IMG/VR virus record: IMGVR_UViG_3300045825_000118
Span: 1-21,697 of that record
DNA length: 21,697 nucleotides
Source of the DNA: a virus
Direction: 5' to 3' (one strand)
Every line of letters starts with the position of its first letter. Within the stretch, counting starts at the first letter, position 1. Shown one piece after another: positions 8,225 through 19,126 of this stretch. The position numbers and the translations under genes were made by a program. Below the pieces are notes generated by a model, which made no database searches, had not been told where the DNA came from, and saw nothing but the letters and a program-made list of their open reading frames with translations.

Positions 8225-8446
8225 TTAAAGGTAAGTGTATTTGTTACGAATATTACGAGCGAAGAATGAACCAATAGAATCAGCCTTCTTCAACTTGCAA
8301 ACGATTGAGCGTGGAATGTTTTGATATTGATATGTCTTACCAGATTGAAACTGAATGTACAGTTCCTTAGTATTACGAGCATATCCGATACGAGCGATTG
8401 AGGAAGATGTAACAGATTTCATTACGAAGTTTGAAGATGTTGTCAT
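8225..8446 (-). CDS. KTSC domain protein, 73 residues
   Basis: This is a single KTSC domain: VTSSSIARIGYARNTKELYIQF, GKTYQYQNIPRSIV, then ADSIGSFFARNIRNKYTY. The family pattern of SS..I..IGY, L.I.F..G..Y.Y..VP, and A.S.G.FF...IR..Y is complete. KTSC domains occur alone in phages and at the C-terminus of some lysyl-tRNA synthetase-like proteins; their role is unsettled. The gene has its own strong promoter (8493-8520) and a strong Shine-Dalgarno, AAAGGAG. Early, high expression is therefore likely. Confidence 0.88.
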   Translation of the reverse strand: MTTSSNFVMKSVTSSSIARIGYARNTKELYIQFQSGKTYQYQNIPRSIVCKLKKADSIGSFFARNIRNKYTYL

Positions 8447-8492
8447 TTTATTTCTCCTTTAGTTAATGACGTGTTGTGCAGCGAATGTGGTC

Positions 8493-8520
8493 ATTATACT
8501 TGAGATAAAACTAATGTCAA
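8493..8520 (-). promoter_or_regulatory. strong sigma70-type promoter before the KTSC gene
   Basis: TTGACA (8515-8520) and TATAAT (8493-8498), both perfect, are separated by 16 bases on the minus strand. The region just downstream (CACATTCGCTG) and the leader end (AAGGAGAAATAAAATG) are nearly the same as in the duplicated promoter module at 16976 and 17506, so this is a third member of that family. It lies in the 83-base gap after gp46 and would drive the KTSC gene, rIIA and rIIB early. Confidence 0.85.
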
Positions 8521-8529
8521 CAACTATTT

Positions 8530-10242
8530 TCAAACAATTTCAGTAAAATTATTTTTCAATGTAAATTCAATAACATGGTCTACTTTATCTTTCATTTCTG
8601 ATTTGTGACTAATGATAAAGACGTTATCTGCTGATGCTGTTTTGAGTAATCTGTGCATTAATTCAGAACCTTCTCGGTCTAGATTTGAGTCCATTTCATC
8701 CATAAATGCGATATTACAGTTGAGTGAATTCTTTGTCTTAGCTATTGTATTCCATGTTAATAAGATAGCAATGTCGATTCTTCTTTTCTGGCCTTCACTA
8801 AATGAGTTATATGTGAAAGTGTCACGATGTCTTGATTTGATTGTCTCATTGAAATTTTCATCTAAGTTGTATAGAACAAAGAAGTCAAAATCAGCCAGAT
8901 ATTTGTTAATTAATTTGTTGATGGTGGGAATGTATTGTTTAATTATTTTTGATTTGATGCCAGAATCGGCTAATAATTGTTGTATAAATTCCTGATATTG
9001 TTGTTCAACTAGCATGGTATCTCTACGTTTACTTGTTGACATAAAATCTTTTGCAAAATCTTTTAACTTAGACATTTCATCATCTACACTGGAACTATCT
9101 TCTTCGATTACAGTCAGCTTCTTATTGTTTGCATTAATTAATGCTGTATTAGCAAACATATCACGTTGTAATTCTGATATATTGGATTGAATGTCTGAGT
9201 ATGCATGAAGTAAATCGGAAAAAGAATTTAATTCTGCATTTAGAGTATTCTCTTTAAATGATAAGTTATTAAGATCGGACTCTAAGGATATTAATTCATC
9301 CGAATGAGAATTAACAATATATTCTTTATGCTCACCATGAATTGATTGTGAACATGTTGGACATATATCCAAAGACGAATAAAATTCTTTTTTCTCTTTT
9401 AATTTTGAAGCTGATAATTTTGTTTGTTTTGACAACAATCTAATTTCAGTAAGAGCATCATCAATGGTATTTTTCTTTTCTACGTCAGAATCATAATTTG
9501 CAAGATTAATGATAAGAGGATCAATTAAATCTTGAATCTCTTTATTTTTATCACGAAGTGATTTGATATCTACAGAAATAATTTCAGAAGAATGTGTCTT
9601 TTCTGTCTTTAACTTTTTGATAAAAGATTCCTGAAGAATGATTTTATCCTTCAAAGATTTCATATTAGATGCAATATCTTTCAGTATAGCTTTATTATCT
9701 TTAGCTAAATCTTTTACTATGGTGTTCATGACAGAAAAGACTTTTATGTCCAATAAATCTTCAACAAATTCTCTTCTATCTTTAGCTGGTAATTTCATGA
9801 ATGGAACATAATCTGTACCACCACCAACAGCTACTACCTGAGTGAATGCCCTATAATTAAATTTTAGAATTTGTTGTTCAAGATATTTTTGATAATCTCT
9901 CACATTGGGATCTTGGTTGACTAGCTTATCATTTAAATAAATTTCAAAAATATTTGGTTTTATTCCGCGTACTATTTTAAACTTCTTTTTACCTATCTCA
10001 AACTTAATTGTAGTGAGAAGTTGTTTTTGATTGATAGCATTAACTAATGCTGGTTTAGTTATATCACCATAGCCTCTACCAAACAAAGCAAAACATATAG
10101 CAGATAATAAGGAAGATTTTCCAGAACCATTAGGACCTGCTATAGCTGTTGTCCTATGAGCATTTAGTTTAACGGTGATTGGAGTATTACCAATGGATCT
10201 AAAATTTTTGTAAGATATTTCAGTAAATATAAGATTGCTCAT
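8530..10242 (-). CDS. 46: recombination nuclease ATPase subunit gp46 (Rad50/SbcC type)
   Basis: This gene encodes 570 residues; T4 gp46 has 560. It has Walker A GPNGSGKS (36-43), a zinc hook CPTC (294-297) between two coiled-coil arms, the ABC signature FSEGQKRR (481-488), Walker B IAFMDE (511-516) and an H-loop ISH (544-546). With gp47 it forms the Mre11-Rad50-type complex. That complex processes DNA ends, degrades host DNA and feeds recombination-dependent replication. It overlaps gp47 by 4 bases. Confidence 0.97.
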   Translation of the reverse strand: MSNLIFTEISYKNFRSIGNTPITVKLNAHRTTAIAGPNGSGKSSLLSAICFALFGRGYGDITKPALVNAINQKQLLTTIKFEIGKKKFKIVRGIKPNIFEIYLNDKLVNQDPNVRDYQKYLEQQILKFNYRAFTQVVAVGGGTDYVPFMKLPAKDRREFVEDLLDIKVFSVMNTIVKDLAKDNKAILKDIASNMKSLKDKIILQESFIKKLKTEKTHSSEIISVDIKSLRDKNKEIQDLIDPLIINLANYDSDVEKKNTIDDALTEIRLLSKQTKLSASKLKEKKEFYSSLDICPTCSQSIHGEHKEYIVNSHSDELISLESDLNNLSFKENTLNAELNSFSDLLHAYSDIQSNISELQRDMFANTALINANNKKLTVIEEDSSSVDDEMSKLKDFAKDFMSTSKRRDTMLVEQQYQEFIQQLLADSGIKSKIIKQYIPTINKLINKYLADFDFFVLYNLDENFNETIKSRHRDTFTYNSFSEGQKRRIDIAILLTWNTIAKTKNSLNCNIAFMDEMDSNLDREGSELMHRLLKTASADNVFIISHKSEMKDKVDHVIEFTLKNNFTEIV

Positions 10243-13796: not shown

Positions 13797-14446
13797 ATTA
13801 GCGGATTTTTAGATATAATCATGTGATGATTCTCAAATTTTTCGTGTGGTTCTCTCTTTTTAAGCCCAATAACATCATCGTTACCAAAAGAGTTAGTAAG
13901 ATGCTTTGCTTTATTTTCATGTATTGTCTGTTGTAATTGTTTTCCATCCCAATGATAAACATGATGGCCATTATCTAATGCTTTATCTACGAGTCGATGC
14001 CACATTTTATGTCCGTCTGTATATTGGTTAGAATCTGATCTAAGCGGATATTTTGATTTTTTAAAATGATCGTAAATTACGTTAGTAGCATGTCCGTTTG
14101 GTAATCTATCATTAGATTTAACTCGTTCTACTACTTTCTGAACTTCATGTTCATATGGAAACTTATCTGTTTTAGCCTGATATGAAACTACCGCATTATG
14201 CAATGTTTCTTTTGAATCATGGTCGTTTGTATGATATTCAGTCCTAACAGGAATACCATTTTCCTTTGTTATATGTCGATGTACATTAACACCACTACCA
14301 GATCCATTAACGTTTGATACTATCTTATTTTTGTGAGTAAGTTTGTAAAACTCATTTCTATAATTATTTACATTTGTATCTAGTCTTGAATACATAGATG
14401 CACCCAACGCATGAGCCATTTCTTTTAATTCTTTAAGGGTTGACAT
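13793..14446 (-). CDS. hypothetical 217-residue protein upstream of uvsW
   Basis: The protein is His- and Asn-rich and basic, with no transmembrane segment. It contains YPLRSDSNQYTDGHKMWHRLVDKALDNGHHVYHWDG. The pattern SD..Q...G...W..L resembles a segment seen in phage proteins linked to GNAT-type acetyltransferase or ADP-ribosyltransferase-like annotation, but I cannot assign a fold or activity from it. It overlaps uvsW by 4 bases and the preceding gene by 14. Confidence 0.75.
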   Translation of the reverse strand: MSTLKELKEMAHALGASMYSRLDTNVNNYRNEFYKLTHKNKIVSNVNGSGSGVNVHRHITKENGIPVRTEYHTNDHDSKETLHNAVVSYQAKTDKFPYEHEVQKVVERVKSNDRLPNGHATNVIYDHFKKSKYPLRSDSNQYTDGHKMWHRLVDKALDNGHHVYHWDGKQLQQTIHENKAKHLTNSFGNDDVIGLKKREPHEKFENHHMIISKNPLI

Positions 14447-14762
14447 TTAATTTTCTCTCCATTAATATTTCATCTTCTAATGTTTTAATACAAAAATACA
14501 TAACGTTATAACCTGAAAACTCTACATCAACTTTTATGTTATCCATAGTACGAGTAAAAAAGTCTGACATATGAAGATAAATTAAAAACGACTCATTAAA
14601 TTTTTCAAATATTTCTTGAGAAAAGTCGTAAACATCAATATATTTAATAACTTCTGGTCTTAACAAATGTGGAAACGATAATAATGTCATCGTATTATTA
14701 ATCGTCATGCCATTAAATGGAGGTTTAACATCAAACGATTTTGATCCAACATTAACTAACAT
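14433..14762 (-). CDS. hypothetical protein, paralogue of the upstream gene
   Basis: This 109-residue protein shares TINNTMTLLSFPHLLRPEVIKY with TLTLLTFPEMLTYDAIRY of its neighbour, and CIKTLEDEILMERKLNV with VVKTLDDEILIERTLHV. Order and length agree, so the two are tandem duplicates that have diverged. Its function is unknown; predicted mixed alpha/beta, no metal-binding pattern. It overlaps the genes on both sides (14 and 11 bases). Confidence 0.8.
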   Translation of the reverse strand: MLVNVGSKSFDVKPPFNGMTINNTMTLLSFPHLLRPEVIKYIDVYDFSQEIFEKFNESFLIYLHMSDFFTRTMDNIKVDVEFSGYNVMYFCIKTLEDEILMERKLNVNP

Positions 14763-15066
14763 GTAATGTCCTCTCTATTAATATTTCATCATCTAATGTT
14801 TTCACCACAAAATATGTCATATATGTATCGTCTGTATTAATTCTAACCTTAACGTTAGTATGTTGATACCAATCGGTGTTCTTCAACATAAAGAATTGAT
14901 TGTTATGCTGGCTTATACGAAGTAAAAAATACTTATTAAGTTCTAAGTCATTAAACATTTCATTGGAGAATTCATGTTCTCCTATATATCTGATGGCATC
15001 ATAAGTCAACATTTCTGGAAATGTTAATAATGTTAGTGTGTTTCTAATTGACCAGTTATAATTCAT
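14752..15066 (-). CDS. hypothetical protein, paralogue of the downstream gene
   Basis: The start is set at the ATG at 15066 (MNYNWSIRNTLTLLTFPEML, 104 residues) because AAGTGGA lies 7 bases upstream. A longer form from GTG at 15078 would consume that site. It is the second member of the tandem pair. The conserved ends are the N-terminal N-T-[LM]-T-L-L-[ST]-F-P and C-terminal KTL[DE]DEIL[IM]ER. I do not recognise the family. It follows uvsY by one base. Confidence 0.8.
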   Translation of the reverse strand: MNYNWSIRNTLTLLTFPEMLTYDAIRYIGEHEFSNEMFNDLELNKYFLLRISQHNNQFFMLKNTDWYQHTNVKVRINTDDTYMTYFVVKTLDDEILIERTLHVS

Positions 15067-15067
15067 A

Positions 15068-15511
15068 TTAATTTCCACTTAAATATTTTTGATATTCGAT
15101 CATAGCCTTCAATGAATAATCTCTACTCTTGATAGAATTAAGTATATATTCAAGTCCAGTGACAGAGGTTTTATATTCTTCAACTATTCTCTTCAAATTA
15201 ATCAATATAGGATCAATTTCAAATTGATGTTGAACCTCTGTGTTAGACATCTTTAATCCTTGAAATTGAGGCCAATCATTATCAATTAATTCTTGCTGTG
15301 TAAGTTCACCACGATAATATCGTTTACGCAAATATCCCATCTTATTTTTCTTAGCATCAGTATTAGCTAACTTTTGTTTGAAGAAAATAAAATACTCCAA
15401 ATACTTGGCATGTAACATAGGAACTCTAATTAATTCTGATGAAAGTTTAGATTCATCAATTACAACATCTACTTTCCAGTGTTCTAAAACATCGTTTATT
15501 GTAAGTTGCAT
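15068..15511 (-). CDS. uvsY: recombination mediator UvsY
   Basis: This gene encodes 147 residues; T4 UvsY has 137. The layout is the same: INDVLEHWKVDVVIDESKL matches T4 LEDLQEELKKDVFIDSTKL, the middle is KKNKMGYLRKRYYRGELTQQE, and the C-terminal ILNSIKSRDYSLKAMIEYQKYLSG matches T4 ALDAIKSRGFAIKHIQDMRAFEAG. UvsY helps load UvsX recombinase onto single-stranded DNA coated with gp32. It is the first gene of the long minus-strand operon behind the perfect promoter at 15542-15570. No strong Shine-Dalgarno precedes its ATG. Confidence 0.88.
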   Translation of the reverse strand: MQLTINDVLEHWKVDVVIDESKLSSELIRVPMLHAKYLEYFIFFKQKLANTDAKKNKMGYLRKRYYRGELTQQELIDNDWPQFQGLKMSNTEVQHQFEIDPILINLKRIVEEYKTSVTGLEYILNSIKSRDYSLKAMIEYQKYLSGN

Positions 15512-15587: not shown

Positions 15588-15616
15588 TTGACATCATACG
15601 TTAATGATAATATAAT
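15588..15616 (+). promoter_or_regulatory. perfect-consensus sigma70 promoter, plus strand
   Basis: TTGACA (15588-15593), 17 bases, then TATAAT (15611-15616) is again a full consensus match, firing away from the uvsY promoter. The two -35 boxes are 17 bases apart. It would transcribe the 61-residue gene and possibly the structured region after it. Confidence 0.9.
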
Positions 15617-15617
15617 A

Positions 15618-15625
15618 TATAAATA
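15618..15625 (+). promoter_or_regulatory. T4-type late promoter TATAAATA, plus strand
   Basis: The exact T4 late consensus TATAAATA is followed by GTTAAAC. It sits one base after the sigma70 -10 box and 25 bases before the ATG at 15650, so this gene can be read both early and late. The extended form ATAAATAGT is shared with the late promoters at 16991 and 21661. Confidence 0.85.
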
Positions 15626-15649: not shown

Positions 15650-15835
15650 ATGGCATTTAAGAGATTAACAAGAAGTCAACGTAAAAGAGAAAATTCTAAA
15701 CCATACGAAATGCAAGTTGAACATAGAGAAGAATTGTATAAAAAAGCTGAACGTTTGGTACAATTAAATACAGCTTTTACAATGTTTGACGCATTAGAAT
15801 TTATCCATTCCACAAGGGACAGATTAAAACAATAA
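15650..15835 (+). CDS. small basic hypothetical protein, 61 residues
   Basis: It starts MAFKRLTRSQRKRENSKPYE, then is mostly helical (REELYKKAERLVQLNTAF) and ends STRDRLKQ. The highly basic N-terminus suggests nucleic-acid binding, as an inference. I do not recognise it. The ribosome site is weak (TTGAGA). It is the only gene between the divergent early/late promoters and the non-coding region, so it may be co-transcribed with the RNA. Confidence 0.65.
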   Translation: MAFKRLTRSQRKRENSKPYEMQVEHREELYKKAERLVQLNTAFTMFDALEFIHSTRDRLKQ

Positions 15836-15838
15836 ATA
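15831..15838 (+). promoter_or_regulatory. possible late promoter before the structured region
   Basis: AATAAATA at the end of the 61-residue gene matches 7 of 8 bases of the late promoter TATAAATA and has the same first base as the one at 16991. Transcription would begin near 15845, just before the first helix of the structured region. It lacks the GTnTTA extension, so this is weaker than the others. Confidence 0.4.
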
Positions 15839-16171
15839 AGATTACCAATGAACAAAGTAGAGAGTTAAATCCGTTGGGGATTCTACTGTGAGTTTGATAA
15901 TATCACTTACACCAAATCGTTAAGCTAACACGATAGAGCATCAGTCCTAAGACCTTCCTTTCAGACTTTGCAGAGTTTATCTCCCCTGTCATTTATACAG
16001 TTCTCCAGGCAAGACCGTCTATAAATCGTAATTATTGTTGTAAACAACACGCCAGAGCCTTAGAAGCCAACTGCGTTAACGTGGGGGAGGCTGTAATATT
16101 CTTTATTGATTTTGATTATATAATGATTAATTAATCGTATACTCTACTGAGAATAAATTAAATCAAAAATT

Positions 16172-16261
16172 AAGTGGGAATGTGCAACAGTCTTTTCGTT
16201 GCAACATTAGTTCCGAAGGAACGATTTAATATAATATTAGGTGAGAATTAAATATCCACTT
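16172..16261 (+). other. four-way RNA junction within the candidate ncRNA
   Basis: The closing helix AAGTGG (16172-16177)/CCACTT (16256-16261) encloses three hairpins. They are AATGT-GCAAC/GTTGC-A-ACATT (16179-16208, one bulged A), GTTCC-GAA-GGAAC (16210-16222) and ATTTAAT/ATTAAAT (16224-16253). Linkers are only one or two bases. About 28 pairs form in 90 bases with a compact tRNA-like cloverleaf layout, but the arms do not match tRNA lengths or loops. Confidence 0.7.
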
Positions 16262-16322
16262 CACAAATAATCAATATAAGTTAGTATATAAATCGCATAA
16301 GCGTATGCTAATACTTTAGATA

Positions 16323-16379
16323 GTTGTAGCTAAAAAAGCAGCTACAACATCTCCGAGAGAAACAAAAAGCGTTTCTCTC
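16323..16379. other. pair of matching hairpins between converging units
   Basis: GTTGTAGCT-AAAAAAGC-AGCTACAAC (16323-16348) and GAGAGAAAC-AAAAAGC-GTTTCTCTC (16355-16379) are perfect 9-base stems with nearly identical loops. They lie between the plus-strand structured region and the 3' end of the minus-strand tube gene. No U run follows on either strand, so they are not standard intrinsic terminators; protective 3' hairpins or part of the RNA fold fit better. Confidence 0.7.
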
Positions 16380-16429
16380 TACAATATTATCAATTCTTCA
16401 CAATGTAAATTAACTACTTCAGTTTAAGT

Positions 16430-16966
16430 CTACAGATAATCAGAATCTACTGTTTTGAAGTCACCTTCATAAGTTAGATAATCATAATTAAAGGATACAT
16501 TAGCAAGTACATATTGAAACTTTTCTACAGTAGAGTCTAAATCATATCCAGATAAAGATGTAGGCCATGCACCATAGAATCTAATAAATGGTTTATTATC
16601 TATCATTAATACTACATCAGCTTCTTTATCTACACTTGATCCATTAACGGTCATAGACTTCATCCAATTAAAAATAGATGCCCAATTTCTTGAATATTTG
16701 TCTACCATAAATGTAACAATAAACGGCTCAAATAAAAGTTTCTCACCAATGCCGTTATAATCTATGACCCTTGTATTAATGTTTACTTGATGTACATTAA
16801 TGGTTGGTAAAGTAAGTTTTTGCAGAAAGAAGGATACATCATCTAGTCCAGGAATAATTAACGAAAATTTATTGTTAGCTAATCCATCAAACGTCAGGAA
16901 TTCTCCATTAGTCATTGATGCTTCACCTACATATTTTGTATCAACTAAATTAACGACTGTCATCAT
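16430..16966 (-). CDS. gp19-like tail tube family protein
   Basis: This 178-residue protein has the tube-protein pattern FSLIIPGLDDVSFFLQKLTLPTI near the N-terminus (T4 gp19: LFQVEISYLG, then CKATALPAG). The centre is FIVTFMVDKYSRNWASIFNWMKSM (T4: WTVTVMNDEAHDARQKFVDW). The C-terminal FYGAWPTSLSGYDLDSTVEKFQYVLANVSFNYDYL matches T4 GLWPTNVGELQLD, then FEVTLALDYWE. Such proteins form the inner tail tube or tube-baseplate adaptors. In T4 gene 19 lies before genes 20-23; here the gene is after gp23, so it may be a second tube-like paralogue. AAAGGA precedes the start; M1 or M2 could be used. A late promoter is at 16991. Confidence 0.8.
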   Translation of the reverse strand: MMTVVNLVDTKYVGEASMTNGEFLTFDGLANNKFSLIIPGLDDVSFFLQKLTLPTINVHQVNINTRVIDYNGIGEKLLFEPFIVTFMVDKYSRNWASIFNWMKSMTVNGSSVDKEADVVLMIDNKPFIRFYGAWPTSLSGYDLDSTVEKFQYVLANVSFNYDYLTYEGDFKTVDSDYL

Positions 16967-16990
16967 TTATTCCTTTATAAACATTAACAC

Positions 16991-16998
16991 TATTTATT
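16991..16998 (-). promoter_or_regulatory. late promoter for the gp19-like gene
   Basis: The minus strand reads AATAAATAGTGTTAATG, 25 bases before the start codon at 16966. The extension GTGTTA matches GTATTA at the gp22 late promoter, and position relative to the start is the same. Confidence 0.75.
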
Positions 16999-17011
16999 TT
17001 AAAAATAGTTG

Positions 17012-17039
17012 TTGACTTCTTTATCAGCTAGTATATAAT
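17012..17039 (+). promoter_or_regulatory. sigma70-type promoter, module copy 1
   Basis: TTGACT (17012-17017), 16 bases, then TATAAT (17034-17039). The downstream box CACATTCGCTG is shared with the KTSC-gene promoter. It drives the 97-residue gene starting at 17074; an ATG at 17038 is within the -10 box and cannot be the start. Confidence 0.88.
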
Positions 17040-17073
17040 GCACACATTCGCTGAACATTTAAGGAGAAATAAA

Positions 17074-17505: not shown

Positions 17506-17587
17506 TATAAACATTAACACTATTTATTTTAAAAATAGTTGTTGACTTCTTTATCAGCTAGTATATAATACACACATTCGCTGAACA
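17506..17587. repeat. 82-base direct repeat, copy 2 (two-way promoter module)
   Basis: Second copy of 16976-17057, 530 bases downstream, with a single difference. Recombination between the copies would delete exactly one module plus the 97- and 39-residue genes. Its minus-strand late promoter (17521-17528) faces back into those genes, so it would make antisense RNA late in infection. Confidence 0.95.
17542..17569 (+). promoter_or_regulatory. sigma70-type promoter, module copy 2
   Basis: TTGACT (17542-17547), 16 bases, then TATAAT (17564-17569), followed by the same CACATTCGCTG box. It would drive the small genes from 17614 onward, independently of copy 1. Confidence 0.85.
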
Positions 17588-17613
17588 AACACTTTAAGGA
17601 GCGAGGAGAAACC

Positions 17614-19093: not shown

Positions 19094-19126
19094 AAAAAAA
19101 GACCTAGATTTTACTCTAGGTCTTTT
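19094..19126 (-). terminator. strong terminator after gp23
   Basis: A 12-base perfect stem, AAAAGACCTAGA (19097-19108) and TCTAGGTCTTTT (19115-19126), with a 6-base loop. On the minus strand the run of seven T (19094-19100) ends the gp22-gp23 transcript. The plus strand also ends the stem in TTTT, so it may stop cassette transcripts as well. Confidence 0.9.

Follow-up and report, generated by a model that had tools for sequence, protein, structure and literature searches.

Background

GOLLD and ROOL RNAs form homo-oligomeric cages, and the stable RNAs C and D of phage T4, which lie in a tRNA cluster, are short noncoding molecules whose role is unknown. GOLLD and ROOL are encoded by phages, extend over hundreds of nucleotides without coding for protein, have no known function and are less conserved in parts of the RNA (PMC12286853). 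They are often found near tRNA islands. Beside uvsY, T4 has the R-loop replication origin ori(uvsY), also called oriF. All that a T4 origin requires is a middle promoter together with an AT-rich unwinding element, and any sequence that forms an R-loop will serve (PMC3016281).

We have analysed a 21.7-kb virus contig of 21,697 nt (IMGVR_UViG_3300045825_000118; the window), which comes from a T4-like phage. Near its uvsY gene is a gene-free stretch that a sequence-only reading had taken for a large structured RNA of the plus strand. A covariance-model match, compensatory changes and gene order support that proposal, folding energy does not, and in our analysis the stretch probably makes a folded noncoding RNA. 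Like GOLLD and ROOL, the proposed element is phage-encoded, hundreds of nucleotides long, noncoding and partly less conserved; unlike them, its body has no excess stability, no Rfam match and no demonstrated elaborate fold. With T4 RNAs C and D it shares a phage of the T4 type and the standing of a proposed noncoding RNA of unknown role, and those RNAs are set apart from it by description, being short and within a tRNA cluster. It is like ori(uvsY) in lying beside uvsY in a T4-like phage and in having a promoter and, about 480 nt downstream, an AT-rich stretch (PMC3016281). However, the promoter in the window faces away from uvsY and is of the TTGACA type with the full sigma70 consensus, whereas T4 middle promoters depend on MotA, and the proposed transcript has conserved base pairs. 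Is the stretch a gene for a folded RNA, or does it serve the phage as DNA?

Results and Discussion

Gene order and promoters

The genes on the minus strand of the window include those for a gp22-like scaffold, gp23, a gp3-like tail protein (16430-16966; tail tube in PHROGs, mostly tail completion in named relatives), UvsY (15068-15511) and a uvsW-like helicase, among others. The uvsY promoter is perfect (15570-15542, minus strand) and stands back to back with a plus-strand sigma70-type promoter, TTGACA-17-TATAAT (15588-15616), which matches the full consensus at 12 of 12 positions. The T4-type late promoter motif TATAAATA is found at 15618-15625 on the plus strand, 33 nt before a small ORF (15650-15835, plus strand) that encodes 61 aa and belongs to no known family. 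Promoters of both early and late type are thus present, as had been claimed. From the end of this ORF to gp3, 594 nt (15836-16429) contain no genes, and the longest ORF in six frames is 29 aa, against a mean of 49 aa in shuffled sequences, which bears out the claim that the stretch has no coding frame. In two IMG/VR contigs, L001 (UViG_3300045995_000364) and L003 (UViG_3300032018_000005), the order is likewise gp3, gene-free stretch, small plus-strand ORF and uvsY, and both carry AATAAATA on the same strand ahead of the small ORF.

This order, with the small ORF preceding the stretch in all three phages that carry the conserved core described below, would agree with a 3' untranslated region controlling the messenger of the ORF in cis. 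The ORFs are barely alike, however: the one in the window has weak similarity (28%) to its counterpart in L003, and sequence comparison could not demonstrate a relation of the L001 ORF to the others. Moreover, the L001 ORF has a TTGACA promoter at its extreme end, so that RNA can be made there without the ORF, and we regard control in cis as improbable. Our best reading of the sequence is a plus-strand transcript of about 600-615 nt, which would run from the early and late promoters through the small ORF and the folded RNA to a hairpin, S2. The proposed noncoding RNA body would occupy 15836-16235 on the plus strand, these ends being deduced from the promoter and S2.

Comparison with known RNA families

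No Rfam family matched the stretch at gathering score, GOLLD and ROOL gave no match up to E 10, and the window contains no tRNA genes; the resemblance to GOLLD and ROOL put forward earlier has found no support. Likewise, the suggested tmRNA, HEARO and group I intron had no match in Rfam or ARAGORN. By the Rfam, tRNA and tmRNA searches, the element belongs to none of these and to no other Rfam family. The contig of L003 does have tRNA genes: ten adjoin a permuted tmRNA gene (L205:19536-19884, about 59.5-59.9 kb on that T4-like phage contig; Rfam tmRNA_permuted, E 3e-22) with the tag ANDTAWALQA, and these tRNAs are about 54 kb from the element. A 129.8-kb relative has 13 tRNA genes in one cluster (L210:510-4143).

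Hairpins and folding energy

The sequence-only reading had counted at least ten local helices. There are exactly ten in 15845-16380 (stem of at least 5, loop of 3-12), compared with 4.9 +/- 1.7 in shuffled sequences, and only 2 of 300 shuffles had ten or more. It had also noted a possible 7-bp closing helix, and AGTAGAG (15856-15862) can indeed pair with CTCTACT (16142-16148). There are 15 such long-range 7-bp matches against an expectation of 10.5, and this one is absent from the minimum-energy fold; we reject it on account of this chance-level count.

Over the whole interval 15845-16380 the folding z-score is -4.5 on the plus strand and -2.7 on the minus strand. The plus-strand value is misleading, because it is carried mostly by two 9-bp terminator-like hairpins (16323-16379, minus strand) that follow the gp3 stop and that probably form the end of the gp3 transcript, outside the RNA. 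In sliding windows the excess lies at 16081-16240 and, above all, at these twin hairpins. The RNA body itself (15836-16235) is no more stable than shuffles on the plus strand (z -0.88), and its first 260 nt (15836-16095) have a z-score of +1.05. The expected excess of stability is therefore seen for the interval but not for the body, and the interval was drawn too long at its 3' end, where 16236-16380 is probably 3' untranslated sequence of gp3.

A conserved folded core

L001 and L003 have ACTTGCGTTAAAGG in common, for which the window has ACTGCGTTAACG (16070-16081, plus strand; ACTTGCGTTAAAG in the relatives). In both relatives ACTTGCGTTAAAG sits inside a common fold, and in all three phages a G-run and an AT-rich segment come after the motif. 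For L003 the minimum-energy fold consists of a closing helix, TCTCCC/GGGAGA, a helix H_a, a hairpin H_b and, directly after it, a helix P_c (CGC/GCG). The same four helices can form in L001 and in the window, although the window has another minimum-energy fold. Their plus-strand positions in the window are 15981-15986 (CTCCCC) with 16084-16089 (GGGGAG, the G-run) for the closing helix, 15991-16026 for H_a (ATTTATA at 15991-15997, TATAAAT at 16020-16026), 16036-16049 for H_b (TGTTG/CAACA), which abuts P_c, and 16050-16075 for P_c, which has a 20-nt loop containing CCTTAGA. No pseudoknot partner for this loop was found at a place shared by the phages.

We recognised the closing helix, H_a and H_b by inspecting the three core-carrying sequences. 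In a hand alignment of these, made to fit the helices, 14 of 21 pairs are changed on both sides; since the gaps had been placed to fit, the RNAalifold score of this alignment was discarded as a measure of strength. Helices of the H_a type occur in shuffled sequences at a frequency of 0.03-0.09 per sequence and those of the H_b type at 0.006-0.016, figures that were calculated with the helices already known. Because of the fitted alignment and the differing fold of the window, we put the weight on a covariance model, which covered H_b and P_c, had L003 and L001 as its sole source sequences and was searched against the window. Its best match there was 16035-16103 on the plus strand (28.3 bits, E 1.4e-4), which includes P_c; the runner-up scored 13 bits. 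Without structure the same segment scored 14 bits, so about 14 bits come from structure. In the alignment fitted to the model, all pairs of H_b are kept in the three phages and four of its five pairs are changed on both sides.

Outside the core, a MAFFT alignment of the whole stretch is poor. Among the contigs searched, the core is carried by the window, L001 and L003 only: motif and model searches of the relatives' contigs gave nothing convincing elsewhere, the close relatives L084/L086 lack the element, and no DNA similarity to the stretch was found in named phages. A motif scan of IMG/VR returned L001, L003 and six further contigs, which we take as chance matches, uvsY, gp3 and uvsW all being absent from them.

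The 3' end

Two hairpins on the plus strand end the proposed RNA. S1 (16179-16208), which L003 also has, is bulged and in two parts. S2 (16210-16232 including its ATTTAATA tail, stem-loop 16210-16222) is terminator-like, with a cGAAg loop, and probably marks the 3' end of the plus-strand transcript. The same loop with an ATTTA-like tail is present in the window, in L001, twice in L003 and in a fourth phage, L014. Across the four phages every cell is paired and four of five pairs are changed on both sides, a covariation score that none of 500 shuffles reached. The check for compensatory changes was therefore passed by S2 as well as by H_b in the core. The comparison supports the core and the 3' end of the body and gave nothing for its 5' third. 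In the L003 contig (1549-1722) the S1-S2 module is duplicated in tandem at a distance of about 131 nt.

Watson-Crick pairs fit either strand, and a late-type motif on the minus strand before S2 could make the complement. The minus strand might then be the working one, a late promoter there making a uvsY leader or a separate late RNA: TATTAAAT stands directly before S2 on that strand in the window, L001 and L003, and TATAAATA does so in L014. As a late motif TATTAAAT is only putative here, however, S2 followed by ATTTA suits a plus-strand terminator, uvsY owns its perfect promoter, and the z-score of the whole interval is the weaker one on the minus strand. We give this arrangement little credence.

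Might the stretch do nothing, as a hairpin-rich spacer or the remains of lost genes? The body without excess stability, the very fast change of sequence and the absence from L084/L086 would all agree with this. Against it, the match of the independent model has its E-value of 1.4e-4 and its 14 bits from structure, S2 and H_b covary, and the promoter is conserved; conservation of the core fold, S2 and the promoter is shown by comparison of the phages. A stretch with no function has, in our judgement, a poor chance of being the answer, and it is likely that a real, conserved folded element is present.

The uvsY-upstream site in related phages

Gaps upstream of uvsY were collected from relatives and scored for an exact TTGACA with an acceptable -10 element on the strand facing away from uvsY, into the gap. 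Among the gaps of 130 nt or more, 23 are distinct and 17 of these have such a promoter, where shuffles predict 1.6; gp3 may not be the neighbour of some of the largest gaps counted. None of 44 gaps of 20-129 nt has it. These cases are not independent, since the phages are related. A transcript start resembling CTGTGCCTCGATGATAT is common to several short-gap members (L007/L224, L102/L239, L084/L098 and L241), and in two short-gap relatives the promoter region is followed by tandem repeats rich in AT. The upstream gene lies within 32 and 8 bases of uvsY in two named Kyanoviridae phages. A search for UvsY in GTDB genomes gave only four distant matches.

Long, ORF-poor versions are found in three further phages, L020 (735 nt), L035 (942 nt) and L268/L267 (942 nt). 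None had an Rfam match at gathering score or a credible one at looser thresholds, and clear sequence similarity to the window was not found. Folding of the L020 gap (L020:3257-4000) is dominated by a hairpin of about 20 bp, and the gap ends with an S2-like cGAAg hairpin. The L268 gap (L268:3040-4001, in a 178-kb phage contig) contains two 35-nt direct repeats that are 97% alike.

An R-loop replication origin like ori(uvsY) is the most serious rival to an RNA gene at this site. Transcripts from the plus-strand promoter would form an R-loop at the G-run and the AT-rich stretch, be cut and prime replication, and the folded core would help hybrid formation, for which ColE1 RNA II is a parallel. 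The element adjoins uvsY, the promoter is conserved while the sequence downstream is not, and two short-gap relatives run from promoter into AT-rich repeats. In the window itself the AT-rich stretch (16095-16178, plus strand) is at the 99th percentile, the segment 16095-16194 ranks within the top 1% by AT content, and no 100 nt are richer in AT than those at the divergent promoters. On the other side, the AT-rich element is about 480 nt downstream of the plus-strand promoter and is absent from the long versions elsewhere, L020, L035 and L268 having a GC content of 0.40-0.43. The promoter is directed away from uvsY, an R-loop does not need conserved base pairs, and the sign of an origin in GC skew is absent from the region and from a 130-kb contig, GC skew being uninformative. 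We hold an origin to be unlikely, and prefer a role as RNA because pairs are kept through changes and because the GC content of the body is raised (0.41, against 0.31 in other noncoding sequence).

A proposed noncoding unit back to back with uvsY

In the RNA gene that we favour, the early promoter at 15588 and the late promoter at 15618 would start a mostly noncoding plus-strand unit back to back with uvsY. Its transcript would cross the 61-aa ORF, continue as about 400 nt of RNA with the conserved core and end at S2, the core comprising the closing helix, H_a, H_b stacked on P_c, and the motif (ACUUGCGUUAAAG in relatives). The unit may be a long and rapidly evolving form of a noncoding unit kept by many relatives at the uvsY site, and the folded RNA would most likely bind a protein or RNA partner rather than code. 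We infer its transcription, both ends, the strand and any function of the RNA from the arrangement of these signals, and would put the chances that the stretch works as an RNA in this way at about even.

A broader proposal is more tentative, and we think it somewhat less probable than its opposite: that one clade of T4-like phages has retained, back to back with uvsY, a gene for a noncoding RNA. Its location would then define a new class of phage RNAs, the short versions having a 5' leader in common (about GTGCCTNGATGATAT) and the gene having grown, in at least six phages, to an ORF-poor RNA of about 400-900 nt. If the RNA reading is right, it would add an undescribed family of phage RNAs and point to one fixed place in T4-like genomes that keeps noncoding transcripts, beside genes of recombination that have a part in the change of replication mode in T4. 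Because both roles can be assayed on one and the same DNA, it also becomes testable whether uvsY R-loop origins exist outside T4.

Other features of the window

Two adjoining ORFs of about 109 aa (14433-14762 and 14752-15078) resemble a tandem duplication, with 38-47% translated identity over parts and 85% DNA identity over 53 nt. A stretch of about 95 nt occurs in two copies that are 94% alike (16976-17066 and 17506-17601), around plus-strand ORFs; both contain the hairpin ACTATTTATTTTAAAAATAGT and TTGAC, and a weaker inverted copy lies near 8440-8534. Directly after gp23, at 19097-19126, a 12-bp hairpin preceded by an A-run and followed by a T-run is likely a two-way terminator.
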